Positions 4,229 to 49,603 of a DNA stretch of 64,000 nt are shown here, piece after piece. A program made the translations under genes and the position numbers. A model generated the notes under the pieces. It was given only the letters and a program-made list of their open reading frames with translations, was not told the origin of the DNA and did not search any database. Source of the stretch: an uncultured Erysipelotrichaceae bacterium (GTDB taxonomy: Bacteria; Bacillota_I; Bacilli_A; Erysipelotrichales; Erysipelotrichaceae); contig CALVFL010000014.1 of NCBI GenBank assembly GCA_944326825.1, positions 1 through 64,000 on the forward strand. Direction: 5' to 3'. Position 1 is the first letter of the stretch; every line of letters begins with the position of its first letter.

Positions 4229-4326
4229 ATTGACTCGTTTATTTTAAGATACCTTTAAGTATCTTAACTTATATAATTTTTTTAAATGAATTGACGTTAA
4301 ATAGATCGTGTTTGTTTATCTATATA

Positions 4327-4350
4327 TATCTTATTCGGTTTTCAAAGATC
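4327..4350. repeat. Left arm of the 16S processing stem / boxA-like leader segment
   Basis: This leader segment reads GATCTTTGAAAACCGAATAA on the minus strand. It is complementary to 2619-2642 and is also repeated directly in the spacer at 2581-2600. This is the usual arrangement of the leader of a Firmicutes rrn operon. Confidence 0.75.
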
Positions 4351-4386
4351 GAAAGCTATACCCTGCTTATTAAAGGCAAGATATAT

Positions 4387-4403
4387 GCACCATTAAATGG
4401 TGC
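4387..4403 (-). other. Perfect 17-base palindrome at the 5' end of the rrn transcript
   Basis: GCACCATTTAATGGTGC on the minus strand begins almost at the transcription start predicted from the promoter at 4410-4438. The nascent rRNA leader would therefore start with a hairpin. It could protect the 5' end or be an operator; no protein is identified. Confidence 0.5.
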
Positions 4404-4409
4404 TTAGTT

Positions 4410-4438
4410 ATATTACCAAATCAGCAAAGGTAATGCAA
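4410..4438 (-). promoter_or_regulatory. rrn promoter (proximal)
   Basis: On the minus strand TTGCAT (4433-4438) and TAATAT (4410-4415) are separated by exactly 17 bases, giving a start near 4403. It lies about 175 bases before the 16S 5' end, as expected for an rrn leader. Confidence 0.75.
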
Positions 4439-4514
4439 GAGGAAATGGGAAAAAAGTTGAAAAAGTTTCAAAAAACTATGTTAATGATCAAATATATATT
4501 TAAATTTAATACCT

Positions 4515-4543
4515 ATAATGCTTTGCTGCGCTTGTGTTTACAA
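4515..4543 (-). promoter_or_regulatory. Possible distal rrn promoter
   Basis: TTGTAA (4538-4543), a 17-base spacer and CATTAT (4515-4520) on the minus strand form a weaker second promoter upstream of the proximal one. Tandem rrn promoters are common. Only four of six bases match in each box, so this is tentative. The rest of 4229-4583 is AT-rich leader with no supported gene. Confidence 0.35.
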
Positions 4544-4583
4544 CAGATTGATGGGGTTTATTATCGAAAATATCATTCTATAT

Positions 4584-4607
4584 AAAAACGGCCTTATGAC
4601 CGTTTTT
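4584..4607 (-). terminator. Terminator after the flavodiiron gene
   Basis: An eight-base stem AAAAACGG/CCGTTTTT with an eight-base loop lies directly after the stop at 4616, followed by a T-rich run on the minus strand. It separates this operon from the rrn promoters downstream. Confidence 0.75.
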
Positions 4608-4615
4608 TAAAAATA

Positions 4616-5815
4616 TCAATTCTTTTCTTTTAAGAACTCAGCCAGTTTTTGAGCCTTTTCATAAACTGCTTCCAAGTCTTCTTGTGTAGGGGCATAATTG
4701 ATGGCGATATTAAAATCCTCAAGCAGTATGCCGATATTTTCTGCCTTTTTATCCATATTGACGATCGGCAGTTTATTCCAGCCATACGAACCGAAAGTGC
4801 CTACATACTTATCTTTGATATTTAAAGAGATCGCTTTATCGATAAAAGAACAAATTTCAGAAGCTAGAGTATTATTATAGCAGCCGCTGCCGATAAGCAA
4901 AGCTTTCGCATCAAGCAGCTCACTTAAGATCAGCGAACTGTCCGTCTTGGACAGTTTATATACTTTAGGTTCAATATCGTTTTGACCAAGACCTTCGGCC
5001 AGCGTTTCCGCTATCGTTTTGGTATTGTTCCAGACACTTTCATAAACGATCACGACTTTATCTTTAGACTTTAAAGAGGCAAAATCTTTATAGTCAGCAA
5101 GCATCTTCCCAATATATTTATGCCAGATAATGCCATGTGATGGGGCAATATAATCTATCGCAAGTTCCAGATCAGCGATCGCCTTTAACTTATTTAAAAC
5201 ATTCTTGCCATAAGGCATGACGATATTGGCATAGTATTCTTTGGCTTTAGCAATCAGATAACTGTAATCATAATCATCATCAAACTTCTTAAAACTTATG
5301 ATATGCTGCCCGAAAGCATCATTAGAAAACAAGATCCTATCATCATCAAAATAAGTAGCCATATTATCCGGCCAATGGATCATCGGCATCTCGATGAAAG
5401 TAAGTGTCCCCCTGCCGATGTTTAAAGTATCGCCAGTCTTGACGCTTTGATAATCATAATCCTTGAAAAACTGGGCAAGCATCGCCCTTTTACCGCTTAT
5501 AGAAACATAAGCTTTGGCTTTAGGATACTCATTCATAAGTTTCATAAAAGCAGAAGAATGATCACTTTCCGCATGCTGGATGATGATGTTGTCGATCATG
5601 CGATCGCCGATTATGGACCTGATCCTTTCTAACATCTCATCATAAAAATCGATCTCGACAGTATCGATCAGTGTGATCTTTTCATCAACTATTAGATAGG
5701 CATTATAAGTAGCCCCTTCATTTATCGGATACATCGAGCCATGAAAATCTCTGAGATTATAATCATGAGCTCCCACATAGTAAACATTGTCTGTTATTTT
5801 AATTGCTTTTTTCAT
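4616..5815 (-). CDS. FprA-family A-type flavoprotein (flavodiiron protein)
   Basis: This 399-residue protein has the two-domain flavodiiron layout: an N-terminal metallo-beta-lactamase-like di-iron domain (about 1-250) and a C-terminal flavodoxin domain (about 254-399). The iron ligand motif HxExD is visible as HAESDH at 81-86, with further His and Asp near 148, 167 (SNDAF) and 228 (SHGIIWH). Such cytosolic enzymes reduce O2 or NO to harmless products in anaerobes. It follows the amidase-like gene after only six bases, so it is probably cotranscribed, and it ends at a terminator. The physiological substrate (O2 or NO) cannot be told from sequence. With the desulfoferrodoxin at 29657 it suggests an oxygen-sensitive host. 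Confidence 0.93.
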   Translation of the reverse strand: MKKAIKITDNVYYVGAHDYNLRDFHGSMYPINEGATYNAYLIVDEKITLIDTVEIDFYDEMLERIRSIIGDRMIDNIIIQHAESDHSSAFMKLMNEYPKAKAYVSISGKRAMLAQFFKDYDYQSVKTGDTLNIGRGTLTFIEMPMIHWPDNMATYFDDDRILFSNDAFGQHIISFKKFDDDYDYSYLIAKAKEYYANIVMPYGKNVLNKLKAIADLELAIDYIAPSHGIIWHKYIGKMLADYKDFASLKSKDKVVIVYESVWNNTKTIAETLAEGLGQNDIEPKVYKLSKTDSSLILSELLDAKALLIGSGCYNNTLASEICSFIDKAISLNIKDKYVGTFGSYGWNKLPIVNMDKKAENIGILLEDFNIAINYAPTQEDLEAVYEKAQKLAEFLKEKN

Positions 5816-5821
5816 AATATT

Positions 5822-7090
5822 TTATTCATTCCATCCATATATTTTAATTAAACTGACATAAGGGTAAGCATAAGCTGAGATCGGATAGTTTTCTAAATCG
5901 ACAGTATTGGAATTGACCAGTATATCGACAAGCTGACCTTCTTTTTCATAAGTTCCGCTTACGACTAAAGTATGTCTTGTCGGACCCTGCGGTCCTACCT
6001 GGATCACATCGCCGACTTCGCCATAGTAAAGATTGACATCGACATCGGCACATAAGCCATAGCCGGTGTTATCTTTAGCATAAGTATAGAAATAAGGGAC
6101 AAAGGTCCAGGTATAGACGAGTCCTTTAGGGGTTTGGGAAGCATTGTAGTCATAACCATACCCTTTCCATTGCAAATGCTTATCAGCATCCCCGTAATGA
6201 TCCATCGGTATGCCGCCGGCATATAAAACCTGCGAGGCGAAGTTTTGACAATTTGAATCAAAGACCATCCAATCAGGATCTCTGTCATCTACCCATACGA
6301 GCTGCGCAGCAGCTGCCTTTCGATCGTATAAATGATCACATTCCTTGTATGGTTTATCTTCACCCTTTAAAAACGCTTCATAATCCTGGCGGTCTTCACT
6401 CAGTTTCTTTTCAAAAAGGGCCAGATAATCACCTTTGATCTTCTTTAATTCTTCTTCCCCGCCGCCATTATAAAGGTCTGTAAACATCACATAAAAATCC
6501 TGAACTTTATTATATTCCAAGATCTTGTAGCCATCATCGCTCTTTCTTAGCGTAAACTCATTTTTGACATTATAGACCCTTGATTCGATATCTTTCATAA
6601 ACTCAAAGTTTAAATAGTTATCTTCAAGCACTGTCACTTTAGTGATCTCACCATCTTTAACAACTTCGCTGAATTCAAGATCATAAGCCGCTTTACTAAG
6701 ACTTAGATCATTGGCTTTCATCTTTCTTGTTTCCACCAGCAAAGACACAGCATACTGATTCATTAAAGCATCTTCGCTTTGAGGATCATCAAAAAGATAA
6801 GTCAGATCATTGATAGTCAATTCTTTGATGGCATTATAGTAAACATCAAAATATTCAACGATGACATCTTTGATGCCTTCTTCTACTTCCACATCATAAG
6901 TGATCTCATTCAGATAACTGGTTCCAAGCGGATCAGTTATTGATAATGTCGGATCATAAATATCATATTTATCAGAATTAACTCCCTGATCAGACTTTAA
7001 GAAGAGAAGATAGAACAAAGAGATGACAAGGACTATTGATAAAGCAATGACTGTGACAAGAAAACTCTTTCTGATTCTTCCTTTCTTCAT
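5822..7090 (-). CDS. Membrane-anchored amidase-like (Amidase_6 fold) protein
   Basis: The 422-residue protein has an N-terminal transmembrane anchor (about 11-31), a middle region of unknown fold and a C-terminal putative amidase domain (about 255-422). Cys281 sits in SNCQNFASQ, His373 in TRHT and Asn near 393 in VNSN, consistent with the Cys/His/Asn-Asp triad of NlpC/P60-related Amidase_6 proteins found in spore formers and gut Firmicutes. It is probably exposed at the cell surface; the substrate is unknown, with peptidoglycan or peptide amides possible. AGGTGA precedes the ATG. It lies between the DUF885 lipoprotein and the flavodiiron gene with gaps of under ten bases, so these form one operon. 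Confidence 0.78.
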   Translation of the reverse strand: MKKGRIRKSFLVTVIALSIVLVISLFYLLFLKSDQGVNSDKYDIYDPTLSITDPLGTSYLNEITYDVEVEEGIKDVIVEYFDVYYNAIKELTINDLTYLFDDPQSEDALMNQYAVSLLVETRKMKANDLSLSKAAYDLEFSEVVKDGEITKVTVLEDNYLNFEFMKDIESRVYNVKNEFTLRKSDDGYKILEYNKVQDFYVMFTDLYNGGGEEELKKIKGDYLALFEKKLSEDRQDYEAFLKGEDKPYKECDHLYDRKAAAAQLVWVDDRDPDWMVFDSNCQNFASQVLYAGGIPMDHYGDADKHLQWKGYGYDYNASQTPKGLVYTWTFVPYFYTYAKDNTGYGLCADVDVNLYYGEVGDVIQVGPQGPTRHTLVVSGTYEKEGQLVDILVNSNTVDLENYPISAYAYPYVSLIKIYGWNE

Positions 7091-7097
7091 ACTTCAC

Positions 7098-8849
7098 CTA
7101 TTCATCTATCCCATATTGGGCAAAGAGATGCTCTTTAAGAAGATCCATCGGCAAAGGTCCCTTGTCTAGGATGCTTTCATGGAACTCTTGATAAGTCAGA
7201 TCTTCTTTGACATTTAAGATCTCTTCATACAGATCATCAAACATCAAACCGGAAGCATAGTAACATATAAAAGCCCCGGGCATGAATTTAAGCTGTTCGA
7301 TAAGTGCATCAGCATCTTCGCCGCTGAGTCCGAATAAACTTTCCACATCTTCACTGATGTCTTCCCCTTGATAATTCACTTCAAGATCAAGCATCAAAAT
7401 GATAGTATAAGTCAAAGTGTTGTTTAATTCATAAGCCATCGCCCCGTCTTTATCATCAGCATATCTTGTAGAAAATCTTTGCACATAATTGGCATAGCCT
7501 TCCACATAGCCGTCATTGCCATACAGCATGTAGATATAAGGCATGGCTTTATTGATCATGTAGCTGTTTTGATACATGTGGCCAGGGAAGCCTTCATGAG
7601 CGACAGTGGTAAATTCTTCTTGGCTATATGTACCATTAAGCATCATCCTTTGTGTGGCACTTGGATCATCAAGTGTACCGATAAGATAGAAAGCACGGGT
7701 CGAAGGCATCAAGACCCCAAATTCACCAGGCAGTTCCACCATGTCATAGGCGATGCTTCCGATATCAGGGAAATCTTCCTTCATCGCTTCACTTAAATAA
7801 GCTAAAAGTTCATTGGGATCAGCAGCGTCGCTGAACTCTATTTCACCCATAAACATCTTTTCTAAATCGGTGAGTTCATACTCGCTCATCAGCGTCATCA
7901 CTTCACTTATGACATCGCTCGTCTTAAGTTCGACATATTCCTGATATTCATCGATATCACTGATACCGCAATTCTCATAGACAAGATTTTCAAAATATTC
8001 TTGACCATAAGGCAGATCAGCTAAAACGACATCATCTTCCTGTTTTATATCAAGTTCTTTTAGACCTTTTAAAATACCTTCATAAAATAAAGTCAGTTCT
8101 TTTTCAAGATTGTCTTCAACTTCTTTGGCATACTGTTCTTTAAGTTTCTCATCAAGTTCAAGATCAAAGAGCTTATCTTTAAACTCGGTCAAAAGGAAAC
8201 TGAAATCGCCATCTTGCAGTAAAGCTTCTAAATTCTCAATAGCTAACTCTACTTCTGATTGGCACATGCCATAACCTTTATCCTGTCTTTCCCTTTCAAA
8301 AGAGAGCAGATCATCTTTATAATCAGCAAGCGTATTTACAAGATTCAGATATGATCTGACATCGTTCTCATTCCTTAGCTCATAGAAATACAAAGTGATA
8401 AAGACGTTCGATACTACCCCTTCATAAGCTCCCAAAACGTTATTGGCAAGATAATATTCAGCTTCTAAAGGTATATCATTGGGACCGTCGTCACAAAGAT
8501 ATTCGATAAAGTCATAGGTGATCTGATTTTCTTTGCTTAGTGATGCTCTTTCAAAACTCTCGTTCGTCTTAGCGATTTCAGTGATAGTCTGATCGAGTTT
8601 TTTAGCTTCATTTAGATCATAACTATCCCAGTTGGCGATCTTGACTTCGATGCCGATGGCTTCCGGGTCGGAAAATAACTGATTGACGACTGTATTGTCA
8701 CCTTTGATCAGCATAGCTGGCAAAGAGGCGACAAATTCCTGATATTCGGCTTGCAACGCTTCATCCTGGACTGGATCGGTTTCAGTCTGACAACCGCATA
8801 ATCCAATGATCAAGAGTAATGTACTTAATATAATTCCTAATCTTTTCAT
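7098..8849 (-). CDS. DUF885 family lipoprotein, probable zinc peptidase
   Basis: This 583-residue protein starts with a lipoprotein signal peptide whose lipobox is LCGC (Cys19 or so), so the mature protein should be anchored to the outer face of the membrane. DUF885 proteins carry an HExxPGH-type motif; here it is HEGFPGH at 418-424, followed by EGYANY with a further glutamate near 450. These suggest a metallopeptidase-like site. A good AGGAA ribosome site precedes the ATG. It sits between a small membrane protein and the amidase-like gene. Function is not established for most members, so peptidase activity is inference. Confidence 0.85.
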   Translation of the reverse strand: MKRLGIILSTLLLIIGLCGCQTETDPVQDEALQAEYQEFVASLPAMLIKGDNTVVNQLFSDPEAIGIEVKIANWDSYDLNEAKKLDQTITEIAKTNESFERASLSKENQITYDFIEYLCDDGPNDIPLEAEYYLANNVLGAYEGVVSNVFITLYFYELRNENDVRSYLNLVNTLADYKDDLLSFERERQDKGYGMCQSEVELAIENLEALLQDGDFSFLLTEFKDKLFDLELDEKLKEQYAKEVEDNLEKELTLFYEGILKGLKELDIKQEDDVVLADLPYGQEYFENLVYENCGISDIDEYQEYVELKTSDVISEVMTLMSEYELTDLEKMFMGEIEFSDAADPNELLAYLSEAMKEDFPDIGSIAYDMVELPGEFGVLMPSTRAFYLIGTLDDPSATQRMMLNGTYSQEEFTTVAHEGFPGHMYQNSYMINKAMPYIYMLYGNDGYVEGYANYVQRFSTRYADDKDGAMAYELNNTLTYTIILMLDLEVNYQGEDISEDVESLFGLSGEDADALIEQLKFMPGAFICYYASGLMFDDLYEEILNVKEDLTYQEFHESILDKGPLPMDLLKEHLFAQYGIDE

Positions 8850-44299: not shown

Positions 44300-44505
44300 C
44301 TTAAAAAATAAAAACGTCCCTCTAAGGACGTCAATCAACGCGTTACCACCTTAGTTCATACCCGGATGGATATGCCCTCTTGACTTTTATCGCAAGTCTT
44401 ACGTTTAATCCCCTTGATAAACGAGTTCATTTTTTGAAACATATCTTCTCTCAGCATCCGAAGACTCTCTTTAATGTTCGCCAAACTACTGCTTTTATCG
44501 ATTAC
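44300..44505 (-). promoter_or_regulatory. T-box leader of leuS
   Basis: The minus-strand leader has a Stem I with AGTAATCGATAAAAGCAG at its base, GGATGCTGAGAGAAG distally, and a specifier-like GAACTCG, giving the leucine codon CTC. The T-box AAGGTGGTAACGCG follows, and then the terminator ACGTCC-TTAGAG-GGACGT (44314-44331) with T-run. The variable base of the T-box is U, matching the A discriminator of tRNA-Leu. Uncharged tRNA-Leu should therefore allow readthrough into leuS. Confidence 0.9.
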
Positions 44506-44600: not shown

Positions 44601-44629
44601 TTTTCAAAAAGTAAAATAAGTTGTATAAT
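44601..44629 (+). promoter_or_regulatory. Promoter of the ATP-grasp/esterase operon
   Basis: TTTTCA (44601-44606), 17 bases, TATAAT (44624-44629). The first ATG (44628) lies inside this -10 and is not the gene start. Confidence 0.6.
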
Positions 44630-44660: not shown

Positions 44661-45872
44661 ATGAATGTGGTATTTATATCACCGAATTTTCCTAAGAATT
44701 TCTATAATTTTTGTCGTGCTTTAAGAGAGAACTATGTCAGAGTTTTAGGTATCGGCGATGAGAAGTATGAAAACTTAGATGAAAATGTCAAAATGTACCT
44801 CAATGATTATTATGAGGTCGATTCTTTGGAGAACTATGACAGTGTTTTAAGGGGCTGCGGTTACTTCACTTATAAATACGGACATATCGATTTTATTGAA
44901 TCCAACAACGAATACTGGCTGATGCAGGATGCCATGCTCAGGACTGATTTCAATGTAGCCAGCGGCATCAAAGTTGATGAGATCAAATATATCCGTTATA
45001 AAAGCGAGATGAAGAAATGCTACAAAAAAGCTAAAGTAAAGACTGCCCGTTTTCATTTAGTCGATACTTTTGAAAAGGCCAAGAAGTTTATCGATGAAGT
45101 CGGCTATCCGGTCGTCGTCAAACCGGATGACGGCGTAGGAGCCAGTGAAACTCATAAATTGAAATGCGAACAGGATCTGATCGATTTCTTCAACTATCCG
45201 CATCAACATCAAATGATCATGGAAGAATTCGTCAATGGTGATCTGATCTCTTATGACGGCATTGCCAATTCCAGACAGGACGTCATCTATGAAACCGGTC
45301 ATATCTTCCCTTTCCAGGTCATGAATATCGTCAATGATGAACTGGATTGTTTCTACTATTCCCGAAAAGAAATTCCTGAAGATCTAAGAAAAGCCGGACA
45401 GGCTGTTATCAAAGCCTTCCCTTGCCGTTCACGCTGTTTCCATTTAGAATTCTTCCGTCTAAGAGAAGATAAGAAAGGTTTAGGCAAAAAAGGCGATCTG
45501 ATTGGTCTAGAAGTCAACATGCGCCCGCCTGGCGGACCGACGCTTGATATGATGAATTATGCAGCCGATATCGATGTCTACCGCATTTGGGCCAATATGG
45601 TGGTCTATGATGAAGCTCTGATCGATTCGACGCATAAGAAGTACTATACCGTCTATGCGGCCAGACGCAAGAAACATACCTATAAGATTGAACTGGAAGA
45701 TATTAAAAAAGAATATGAAGATAATATCGTCATGGAAGAAGATATGCCAGAGGTCACAGCCGGTGCCATGGGTGACCATTATCTGATCGCCCGCTTTGAA
45801 GATAAAGAAGCGATCGATCCATTTGTAAAGAAAGTAATAGAGGCTGACAGCTATGCAGACGAATTATTATAA
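44661..45872 (+). CDS. ATP-grasp domain protein, unknown ligase
   Basis: The 403-residue protein has an N-terminal Rossmann-like part and an ATP-grasp fold (about 100-310). Nucleotide-binding segments include YPVVVKPDDGVGASET and EEFVNGDLISYDG, and the metal site is in GLEVNMRPPGGPTLDM. Such enzymes join a carboxylate to an amine or thiol through an acyl phosphate. AGGGGG lies nine bases before the ATG at 44661 (MNVVFISPNF); an ATG at 44655 is closer. Two esterases follow, the first overlapping by 20 bases, so a shared pathway is likely. Substrates are unknown. Confidence 0.85.
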   Translation: MNVVFISPNFPKNFYNFCRALRENYVRVLGIGDEKYENLDENVKMYLNDYYEVDSLENYDSVLRGCGYFTYKYGHIDFIESNNEYWLMQDAMLRTDFNVASGIKVDEIKYIRYKSEMKKCYKKAKVKTARFHLVDTFEKAKKFIDEVGYPVVVKPDDGVGASETHKLKCEQDLIDFFNYPHQHQMIMEEFVNGDLISYDGIANSRQDVIYETGHIFPFQVMNIVNDELDCFYYSRKEIPEDLRKAGQAVIKAFPCRSRCFHLEFFRLREDKKGLGKKGDLIGLEVNMRPPGGPTLDMMNYAADIDVYRIWANMVVYDEALIDSTHKKYYTVYAARRKKHTYKIELEDIKKEYEDNIVMEEDMPEVTAGAMGDHYLIARFEDKEAIDPFVKKVIEADSYADELL

Positions 45873-46599
45873 TGAATATTCTCACAACCTGAACAGAAAC
45901 ATGGAGTTCAAGACTTATGGACATGACGGCATCGCCTTCATCGTCTTCCCGGCTCAAAACGGCCGTTTCTATGATTATGAAAACTTTAATATGGTCGAAG
46001 CTTTAAGCGATTATATCGAAAGCGGAAGGATCAGACTTTGCTGTGTGGATTCCGTAGATGAAGAAACCTGGTCATTTGTAAACGGCGATTATCATGGCCG
46101 CATCTTAAGACATGAAGCTTATTTCAACTACATCAATGAAGAATTGTATCCTCGTCTTTTGGAACTCTTCGGCATGAACCATCAGGGTCAGATCTATCTT
46201 ACCGGCTGTTCGATGGGAGCAACCCATGCCTTGAACTTCTTTTTAAGAAGACCTGATCTTTATAAGGGTGTCATCGCCTTAAGCGGTGTATATCACGCTT
46301 CTTATTTCTTCCCTAACTACAATGACGAGCTGATCTATCTGAATTCAGTAACCGATTATCTGCCCAATATGCCAAAAGATCATGACTTGCTAAAAGAGTA
46401 TCGCAATAGTAAAATAGTGGTCTGTGTAGGTCAGGGGGCCTGGGAAGATGAAGCGATCGAAGATACCAAGATCGTCGATGATGCCTTTAGGCGCCTGTCA
46501 GTGCCTGCCTGGGTCGATTACTGGGGCTATGATGTAAATCATGACTGGCCATGGTGGCGCACCCAGATCAAATATTTCATGCAGTATTTTTTGGAGTGA
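45853..46599 (+). CDS. Esterase family alpha/beta hydrolase (first of a pair)
   Basis: The 248-residue hydrolase has a serine nucleophile motif GCSMGA (about 116-121) and a C-terminal NHDWPWW whose His is the likely catalytic base. It resembles the putative-esterase (EstD/Fes-like) family. It overlaps the ATP-grasp gene by 20 bases and is followed by a second esterase after seven bases. There is no signal peptide, so it acts in the cytoplasm. Its substrate may be the product or precursor of the ligase. Confidence 0.82.
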   Translation: MQTNYYNEYSHNLNRNMEFKTYGHDGIAFIVFPAQNGRFYDYENFNMVEALSDYIESGRIRLCCVDSVDEETWSFVNGDYHGRILRHEAYFNYINEELYPRLLELFGMNHQGQIYLTGCSMGATHALNFFLRRPDLYKGVIALSGVYHASYFFPNYNDELIYLNSVTDYLPNMPKDHDLLKEYRNSKIVVCVGQGAWEDEAIEDTKIVDDAFRRLSVPAWVDYWGYDVNHDWPWWRTQIKYFMQYFLE

Positions 46600-46606
46600 T
46601 TAGTTA

Positions 46607-47368
46607 ATGATTATAAAAGAAGAGATCGAAATATCCATCTATAAAGAAAAAAGGACTTTGCATATCTATGTGCCCGACCATTTAAAGAAAGGTCAAAGAT
46701 GCACTGTCATCTATATGTATGACGGTCACAATCTGTTTAATGATGAAGATGCCACTTATGGTGTTTCCTGGGGTCTAAAAGACTACTTGGACGCTAAAGG
46801 CTATCCGATCATGATCGTCGGATTAGAGTGCAATCACAAAAGCAATCTGCGGCTTTGTGAATTCTCTCCTTATGACTTCTATGATCCTGAATGGGGTGAA
46901 GTCAAAGCGAGCGGCAAAGAATTGACTAGGTGGCTCGTTGAAGAACTAAAACCTTATATCGACTCCAACTATCCCACTTATCAAGACCGCAAACACACCG
47001 CTATCGGCGGCAGTTCGATGGGCGGACTGATGGCTTTATACGGGGGCTTCAGCTATTCTAACATCTTCTCTAAAGCCTTGTGTCTATCCCCTTATACATA
47101 CTATGTGATCAAAGACATCCTGATTGATCTCAAAAGAGCTTCGCTTAATAACGATACTGCCTTTTATATCAGCTATGGCTCTAAAGAGTGTGACAAGATC
47201 AAGGATCTTATCACTTATACCGATCAGATCATGAGCATCCAAAGAGCGATCCTAGACCGCTCAAAAGTATATCTGCATCTTTATAAAGGCCATCGTCATA
47301 CCGAAAGCGATTGGGCCAAAGAAACCAGAGTCTGGATGAAAGAATTAGGATTTGAAAGATTGAAATAA
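46607..47368 (+). CDS. Esterase family alpha/beta hydrolase (second of a pair)
   Basis: The 253-residue hydrolase has the nucleophile motif GGSSMGGLMALY (about 133-144) and a C-terminal KGHRHTESDW with the likely His. It starts with a beta-strand N-terminal part (KRTLHIYVPDHLKKG) typical of the putative esterase family. It is clearly related in fold to its neighbour but not a recent duplicate. GGAGTGA precedes the ATG. Substrate unknown. Confidence 0.84.
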   Translation: MIIKEEIEISIYKEKRTLHIYVPDHLKKGQRCTVIYMYDGHNLFNDEDATYGVSWGLKDYLDAKGYPIMIVGLECNHKSNLRLCEFSPYDFYDPEWGEVKASGKELTRWLVEELKPYIDSNYPTYQDRKHTAIGGSSMGGLMALYGGFSYSNIFSKALCLSPYTYYVIKDILIDLKRASLNNDTAFYISYGSKECDKIKDLITYTDQIMSIQRAILDRSKVYLHLYKGHRHTESDWAKETRVWMKELGFERLK

Positions 47369-47369
47369 C

Positions 47370-48320
47370 ATGAACAACCCTTTTAAATACACTTTAGACA
47401 ATAAGCGTTATCATACTTTCAACTATTATCTCAAGACCAAATACAACAAGAAAGCCGCCAAGATCATCTTAAATGGCGGTTTTAGTTGTCCTAACAGAGA
47501 TGGCACAAAAGGCTATGGCGGCTGTACATTTTGTTCGCTAAGCGGCAGCGGCGATTCAAATCTCTTCAAAAGTGCCGATATAATGACTCAATATGCCGAA
47601 AATAAAAAGATCATGCTTAAAAAATGGCCGGATATCCTGTTTATCCCCTATTTTCAATCTTTTTCCAATACCTATGGACCGCTTGATAAGATCAAGGCCA
47701 TGATCGAACCCTTCTTAACACTTGATGAGGTCATAGCTATCGATATAGCGACAAGATGCGACTGTTTAAAAGAAGAAGTCATCACTTATCTTGACAAGAT
47801 CTCGCAAAAGAAAGAGATCTGGTTAGAATTAGGTCTTCAGACCAGCAATGAGAAAACTGCTCAAATGATCAATCGTGGCCATACTTTTCAAGAATTCGTT
47901 ACAGCTCTTGAAAGATTAAAGAATACCAATATCAAGGTATGTGTTCATATCATGAATTCTCTTAAAGGCGAAGATGCAGAGGACATGCTGCAGACTGTCA
48001 AAGACATTTCCCATCTCCCCTTTGATGCCATCAAGATCCACATGCTGCATATCATCAAAGATACTAAAATGGCTTTAGAGTATGCAAGAGAACCGTTTCC
48101 CTTATTAAGCATGAATGAATATATCAATATCGTCATTAAACAGCTTGAACTCTTAGATCCTGAAGTGATCATCGAAAGACTTACCGGTGATCCGATCAAG
48201 GAAGAACTTATCGCTCCTCTTTGGACTTTGAATAAGATCGCTGTCTTAAACGGCATCGATAAAAGGATGGCTGAACTAAATACCTATCAGGGCAAGTATT
48301 ATGAAGATAACCACTTTTAA
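47370..48320 (+). CDS. mnmL: TIGR01212-type radical SAM protein (MnmL/YtqA)
   Basis: The 316-residue radical SAM enzyme carries the three cluster cysteines in SCPNRDGTKGYGGCTFC (about 38-54) and a TIM-barrel with LELGLQTSNEKTAQMINRGH. In Bacillus the same pair, ytqA-ytqB, works in the maturation of the wobble uridine (mnm5) of tRNAs, with YtqB the methyltransferase (MnmM). The downstream partner overlaps it by 20 bases here. The identification rests on family resemblance and synteny. Confidence 0.85.
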   Translation: MNNPFKYTLDNKRYHTFNYYLKTKYNKKAAKIILNGGFSCPNRDGTKGYGGCTFCSLSGSGDSNLFKSADIMTQYAENKKIMLKKWPDILFIPYFQSFSNTYGPLDKIKAMIEPFLTLDEVIAIDIATRCDCLKEEVITYLDKISQKKEIWLELGLQTSNEKTAQMINRGHTFQEFVTALERLKNTNIKVCVHIMNSLKGEDAEDMLQTVKDISHLPFDAIKIHMLHIIKDTKMALEYAREPFPLLSMNEYINIVIKQLELLDPEVIIERLTGDPIKEELIAPLWTLNKIAVLNGIDKRMAELNTYQGKYYEDNHF

Positions 48321-48816
48321 CCATAAATACTTTATTTCACTTTTAAACGAAGACAAGATCGGGGTCGATCTGACTTTGGGCAAAGGAAGCGATACCCTCT
48401 TTTTAGCTAATCATTTAAAAAAGGTCTATGCCTTTGACATTCAAAAGGAAGCTATCGCAATCTCTTCTAAGAAGCTGAGCGATCATGACAATGTTATCTT
48501 TATCTTGGATGATCATGCCAATATCAAAGAATATGTCAAAGAAAAGATCGACATCGTTTTTTTCAATTCCGGCTATCTTCCCAACAGTCAAAGCCCTCTT
48601 ATCACCAAAGCTTCATCATCGCTTAAAGCTTTAAGCGATGCCTATGATCTTTTAAATGATGGCGGCTATCTTTCTATAGCTCTTTATAAGGGACATGAAG
48701 GCGGATTAAAAGAAGCGATCGCCATTAAAGATCGCATCAAAGATTTGAATATCATTGAAACCTATAAAGAACATAAATCTTTATTAGAACCGGAATTATT
48801 TATCATCAAAAAATAA
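48301..48816 (+). CDS. mnmM: tRNA mnm5U methyltransferase MnmM (YtqB-like)
   Basis: The 171-residue SAM-dependent methyltransferase has the binding motif GVDLTLGKGSDTLFLA near the N-terminus and VFFNSGYLPNS in the middle. It overlaps mnmL, as in other Firmicutes, and would convert nm5U to mnm5U at position 34. A second possibility is a related rRNA methylase of the same family. Confidence 0.85.
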   Translation: MKITTFNHKYFISLLNEDKIGVDLTLGKGSDTLFLANHLKKVYAFDIQKEAIAISSKKLSDHDNVIFILDDHANIKEYVKEKIDIVFFNSGYLPNSQSPLITKASSSLKALSDAYDLLNDGGYLSIALYKGHEGGLKEAIAIKDRIKDLNIIETYKEHKSLLEPELFIIKK

Positions 48817-49252: not shown

Positions 49253-49603
49253 ATGAAAAAGAAAACTATATTGATGCTTATCATTCTCATCCTTTTGATC
49301 GTCAGCATCTGCATTATAGTCAATATCAAGAATGTCGATGACAGACTGTATGGAACTTATATCAGCGAAGATCTTAGTGAAGAGATAGCTTTGAATTATG
49401 GCCATTACGCTTTTAAAAACGGCGAGAGATATGATTATTTAGGCTTAGGCAAAGCTGGCTTGTTTATGCCGGATAAAAAGGCAGAAGATACTTATACCAT
49501 CAATCCTTTCACAAGTTCTTACATCAAACTGATCGATGATACAAAAATAATGATCGTAAGCAGCGAAAACATCTCTTCTTTTGCGATATTTAATAAAAAG
49601 TAA
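49253..49603 (+). CDS. Small membrane-anchored protein (116 aa), unknown
   Basis: The N-terminal hydrophobic helix (MKKKTILMLIILILLIVSI, about 5-24) is a signal anchor, followed by about 90 mostly polar residues (GTYISEDLSEEIALNYGHYAF onward in part) that should be outside the cell. There is no cysteine lipobox. AAAGG precedes the ATG. It is flanked by the small RNA-like elements B and C. I do not recognise the family. Confidence 0.7.
   Translation: MKKKTILMLIILILLIVSICIIVNIKNVDDRLYGTYISEDLSEEIALNYGHYAFKNGERYDYLGLGKAGLFMPDKKAEDTYTINPFTSSYIKLIDDTKIMIVSSENISSFAIFNKK

Follow-up and report, generated by a model that had tools for sequence, protein, structure and literature searches.

L-amino-acid ligases of the RizA/BacD type (EC 6.3.2.28) are ATP-grasp enzymes, and the α/β hydrolases of family PF00756 include feruloyl esterases, S-formylglutathione hydrolase/EstD, enterochelin esterase and antigen 85. 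Relatives of both stand side by side in a 64,000-nucleotide stretch of DNA (the window; positions 1 to 64,000 of contig CALVFL010000014.1, assembly GCA_944326825.1) from an uncultured Erysipelotrichaceae bacterium. The draft genome measures 1.38 Mb, and its nearest named relatives are themselves uncultured Erysipelotrichaceae. Here a distant relative of the RizA-type ligases (44661-45872, 403 amino acids) is followed by two PF00756 hydrolases: est1 (45853-46599, 248 amino acids), the core partner of the ligase, and est2 (46607-47368, 253 amino acids), an optional member. All three genes lie on the + strand. The open reading frame coordinates confirm the predicted layout, in which ligase and est1 overlap by 20 bases and est2 follows est1 after 7. 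The original prediction proposed that these genes may belong to an undescribed small-molecule pathway. Our data bear this out in part. They support an undescribed small-molecule module of ligase and esterase: the genes are linked across genomes, and they matched neither a known biosynthesis operon nor a curated family. A literature search, whose coverage left out most subscription journals, found no paper describing the ligase-esterase pair.

Conserved adjacency of the gene families had been put forward as a test of the pathway, and it was found. Among 60 relatives, 47 had clear ligase orthologues (one weak match was left out of the count). We then considered a sample of 295 Bacilli genomes, counting ligase matches below 1e-80 and, as close est2 relatives, matches of at least 230 bits. 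The ligase was found in 69 genomes, est1 in 32 and close est2 relatives in 21. Of the 32 genomes with est1, 31 also had the ligase and 24 had it adjacent, at a distance of -17 to 39 bases. The hypergeometric P for est1-ligase co-occurrence was 1e-21; the genomes are related, so P values overstate the case. When est2 was present the ligase was nearly always present too (20/21), and est2 was often elsewhere in the genome. These data indicate that ligase-esterase linkage is far beyond chance, and that the core of the module is the ligase-est1 pair, with est2 optional.

The linkage is old and extends beyond Bacilli. Ligase and est1 also lie side by side in Peptoclostridium acidaminophilum and in two Rhizobiaceae, Sinorhizobium sp. 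RAC02 and Pararhizobium qamdonense. In these three species, est1 is more similar to the window's protein (47-49% identity) than the ligase is (37-44%). It could be argued that the genes are housekeeping neighbours with no common pathway, kept adjacent through shared expression or co-transfer. The ligase does stand alone in many Bacilli families and the genes outside the module vary, but the pair is linked across Bacilli, Clostridia and Rhizobiaceae, the trio occurs in two orders and chance adjacency is negligible. We regard this explanation as very improbable.

In the window's own genus, every examined member with a complete locus has the order ligase-est1-est2. The reversed trio, est2-est1-ligase, is found in G010, G023 and a human faecal scaffold. 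As two orders exist, more than inherited synteny keeps the trio together. In a sister family (f2), the ligase and est1 are followed by a second ligase. This additional ATP-grasp enzyme forms its own supported clade and has intact catalytic residues. Thus, the ligase-est1 part of the predicted trio is conserved, whereas est2 is optional and in the sister family the second ATP-grasp enzyme stands in its place next to est1. Three genera (G011, G029 and G157) carry a variant cluster of a NUDIX hydrolase, the ligase, a HAD hydrolase in one of them, est2 and a calcineurin-like phosphatase (L064 4560-8330, L065 4245-7822 and L082 2442-6827). The NUDIX and phosphatase proteins are 41-50% identical across these genera. 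The G011 and G029 ligases share one supported clade with two other est2-paired ligases. Ligase subtypes therefore seem to be matched to hydrolase subtypes, which favours shared substrates.

Homologues were also seen in other settings. In Peptoclostridium (L073 4779-10046), the ligase-est1 pair lies, together with a gene for a tryptophan-rich sensory protein, between two DAHP synthase genes. A Massilia plasmid (L076 5878-9179) carries a distant ligase homologue after genes for an aminotransferase and a methyltransferase; no esterase accompanies it, and this is perhaps another biosynthetic use of the ligase family. The faecal scaffold with the reversed trio, an unverified record deposited as 'Bacteriophage sp.' (L080, MT836893.1), has est2-est1-ligase at 4309-7260 and looks like bacterial chromosome. 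Phage-borne spread was rejected: an IMG/VR scan gave no relative, and the bacterial-looking MT836893.1 was the sole match in a phage collection.

The ligase matches Pfam ATP-grasp models weakly (GARS_A, 26.2 with a cut-off of 27; CPSase_L_D2, 19.9 with a cut-off of 19.8). It reaches no NCBIfam model, scoring 22.6 bits against a cut-off of 850 for the curated BacD model NF053745. The best solved relative of the ligase-family profile is RizA (PDB 4wd3, 84 bits), residues 48-306 of which align with the profile. The two share ATP-grasp architecture and the motifs H-x-E and E-x-x-x-R-x-x-G. Across 31 ligase sequences from Bacilli, Clostridia and Proteobacteria, K114, K154, H261, E263, E284, N286, R288 and G291 are invariant, and E188 is conserved in 30. 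The set expected to bind ATP and Mg, two lysines and acidic or asparagine residues (K114, K154, E263, E284 and N286), is therefore intact; E188 and H261 are likewise expected to take part in this binding.

In RizA, the second (C-terminal) amino acid substrate sits in a pocket lined by T81, K83, S84, S156 and A158 (PMC9321006). These residues align with N83, Y85, W86, V159 and A161 of the ligase in the profile alignment. The corresponding loop, S81-x-N83-E84-Y85-W86, is near-invariant in the family: S81, E84 and W86 are invariant and residue 85 is mostly bulky. A bulky residue 85 together with the invariant W86 suggests a small acceptor, and the alignment points to an acceptor site that is conserved and rather narrow. 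In contrast to the RizA/BacD-type enzymes, to which its similarity is remote, the ligase has a different acceptor loop (SNNEYW) and is partnered by a dedicated PF00756 hydrolase rather than an antibiotic gene cluster.

As predicted, both hydrolases have an intact G-x-S-x-G motif (GCSMG in est1, GSSMG in est2) and neither has a visible signal peptide, consistent with a cytosolic location. They match PF00756 at 51.9 bits (est1) and 73.2 bits (est2), well above the cut-off of 22, and BLASTP detects no similarity between them. S120, E198 and H230 of est1, the last within H230-D-W, are invariant in 14 sequences, as are S137, E194 and H231 of est2 in 10. The est1 serine and histidine align to solved esterases; Glu198 and Glu194 are the probable acid residues, judging from conservation, and the catalytic loops of the est1 model are of low confidence. 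Overall, the predicted est1 structure (predicted local distance difference test score, pLDDT, 76) is similar in fold to feruloyl esterases, S-formylglutathione hydrolases and antigen 85 (Foldseek probability 1.00, TM ~0.7). Like PF00756 esterases, it has its nucleophile serine in GxSxG and a terminal histidine within H-D-W, as in 5vol. Unlike them, the hydrolases here lack a signal peptide and have an ATP-grasp ligase alongside, at only ~15-17% identity to the described enzymes. No curated NCBIfam model was passed by either: S-formylglutathione hydrolase gave 20.2 (est1) and 16.5 (est2) bits against 281.7, enterochelin esterase 15.4 and 26.6 against 222, and the GTNG_0744 esterase 9.6 and 42.6 against 450.

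This pairing of activities admits a reading in which the ligase builds, and the esterases break down, a labile conjugate (an ester or thioester), as a storage, protection or signalling cycle. The three enzymes would be co-translated and of opposite bond chemistry, and both PF00756 hydrolases are distantly related to S-formylthiol hydrolases. ATP-grasp enzymes that form esters are also known, namely those making graspetide macrolactones and the D-Ala-D-Lac ligases. However, the nearest solved relative of the ligase forms amides, and a futile cycle needs separate control, yet the genes overlap. We therefore consider such a cycle unlikely.

Instead, we favour a model in which the ligase would be an ADP-forming carboxylate-amine ligase, acting like an L-amino-acid ligase, in a compact cytosolic module. 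It would use ATP to phosphorylate a carboxylate, probably that of an amino acid, and a small amine acceptor would take up the acyl group from the resulting acyl phosphate, yielding a dipeptide or aminoacyl amide. As a serine hydrolase, est1 (and, in the window's own genus, est2 as well) would then act after the ligase in the same product line, where it would remove or transfer an acyl or ester group. The proposed order of the two steps draws on distribution. The ligase is often present without either esterase, and its occurrence in 69 genomes, set against an est1 that is nearly always with the ligase, makes the dependence one-way. On the simplest interpretation, the product line of the ligase is what est1 works on. 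The amide product, the amino-acid substrate, the narrow acceptor pocket and the position of the hydrolase downstream of the ligase are all inferred, and we hold the ligase-then-hydrolase explanation as a whole tentatively, at slightly less than an even chance.

Several observations weigh against this model. Seven genomes hold est1 and the ligase apart, the non-adjacent est1 genes standing beside unrelated genes, and one draft genome has est1 with no ligase match. The ligase resembles RizA only remotely and passes none of the curated ligase models. Because the predicted ligase structure is poor (pLDDT 58), statements about the pocket derive from the profile alignment. Finally, est1 could instead act on the substrate of the ligase. 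For example, est1 might cleave an imported ester to release a carboxylic or amino acid, which the ligase would then conjugate, in salvage or detoxification. The esterase folds match feruloyl esterases, and gut and soil bacteria presumably meet plant esters. However, est1 is nearly always found with the ligase while the ligase also occurs without est1, the reverse of the pattern expected of a supplier that works alone and upstream, and no conserved transporter neighbour was found. Such preparation of the substrate is, in our view, doubtful.

The compact arrangement of an ATP-grasp ligase resembles graspetide clusters. We rejected this assignment: there is no precursor gene, and the gaps, -17 to 39 bases between genes that overlap or abut in the window and its relatives, leave no room for a precursor peptide reading frame. 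The ATP-grasp is also of another type, failing the RimK-type model PF08443 (15.4 vs 21 bits). An anti-phage defence system was likewise set aside, since none of the three proteins matches a PADLOC model.

The genes had been predicted to share a single promoter. A sigma-70-like site, TTTTCA-17-TATAAT, lies upstream at 44601-44629 (+ strand; 10/12 in a consensus scan, which is no proof of function), making one promoter for all three genes plausible from sequence. However, a second match, 11/12, is found where the ligase gene ends (45844-45873). AGGGGG lies nine bases before the ligase ATG at 44661; a longer frame from ATG 44628 would start within the likely -10 box of the upstream site. Back to back with that site is a leuS T-box leader (44321-44505, - strand; Rfam RF00230, 89.8 bits, slightly below the gathering score of 93) with a terminator-like stem at 44313-44332. 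This was the sole regulatory RNA nearby and lies on the opposite strand, so a regulatory RNA common to the trio was discarded.

Directly downstream, as the original prediction noted in assigning them to the operon, are mnmL (47370-48320, +; a tRNA-modification radical SAM protein, TIGR01212, 330 bits), which starts one base past est2, and mnmM (48301-48816, +; a tRNA methyltransferase, NF053511, 151 bits with a cut-off of 135), which overlaps mnmL by 20 bases. Among the loci examined, mnmL is beside the trio only in the window and in one close relative (L053). A functional link of mnmL-mnmM to the trio was thus dismissed; they are incidental neighbours and no conserved part of the module. Further along, 49253-49603 (+) encodes a 116-amino-acid orphan with a membrane-like N-terminal segment and no significant family match.

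Taken together, the module is real and conserved and apparently still undescribed, with two or three genes from known enzyme superfamilies. Its enzymes very probably build and process a single small molecule. It may represent a widespread pathway of Erysipelotrichales, Clostridia and Rhizobiaceae in which the conjugate made by an L-amino-acid-ligase-like enzyme is matured or released by a dedicated serine hydrolase, with the variant clusters (second ligase; NUDIX and calcineurin-like phosphatase) giving related compounds; we put this broader proposal forward with somewhat more reserve than the enzymatic model itself. The pair is small and occurs in many bacteria of the gut and some of the soil; present annotation calls its members no more than 'ATP-grasp domain-containing protein' or 'alpha/beta hydrolase-fold protein'. 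Being so closely linked, the two genes offer a good way in to an unknown metabolite.
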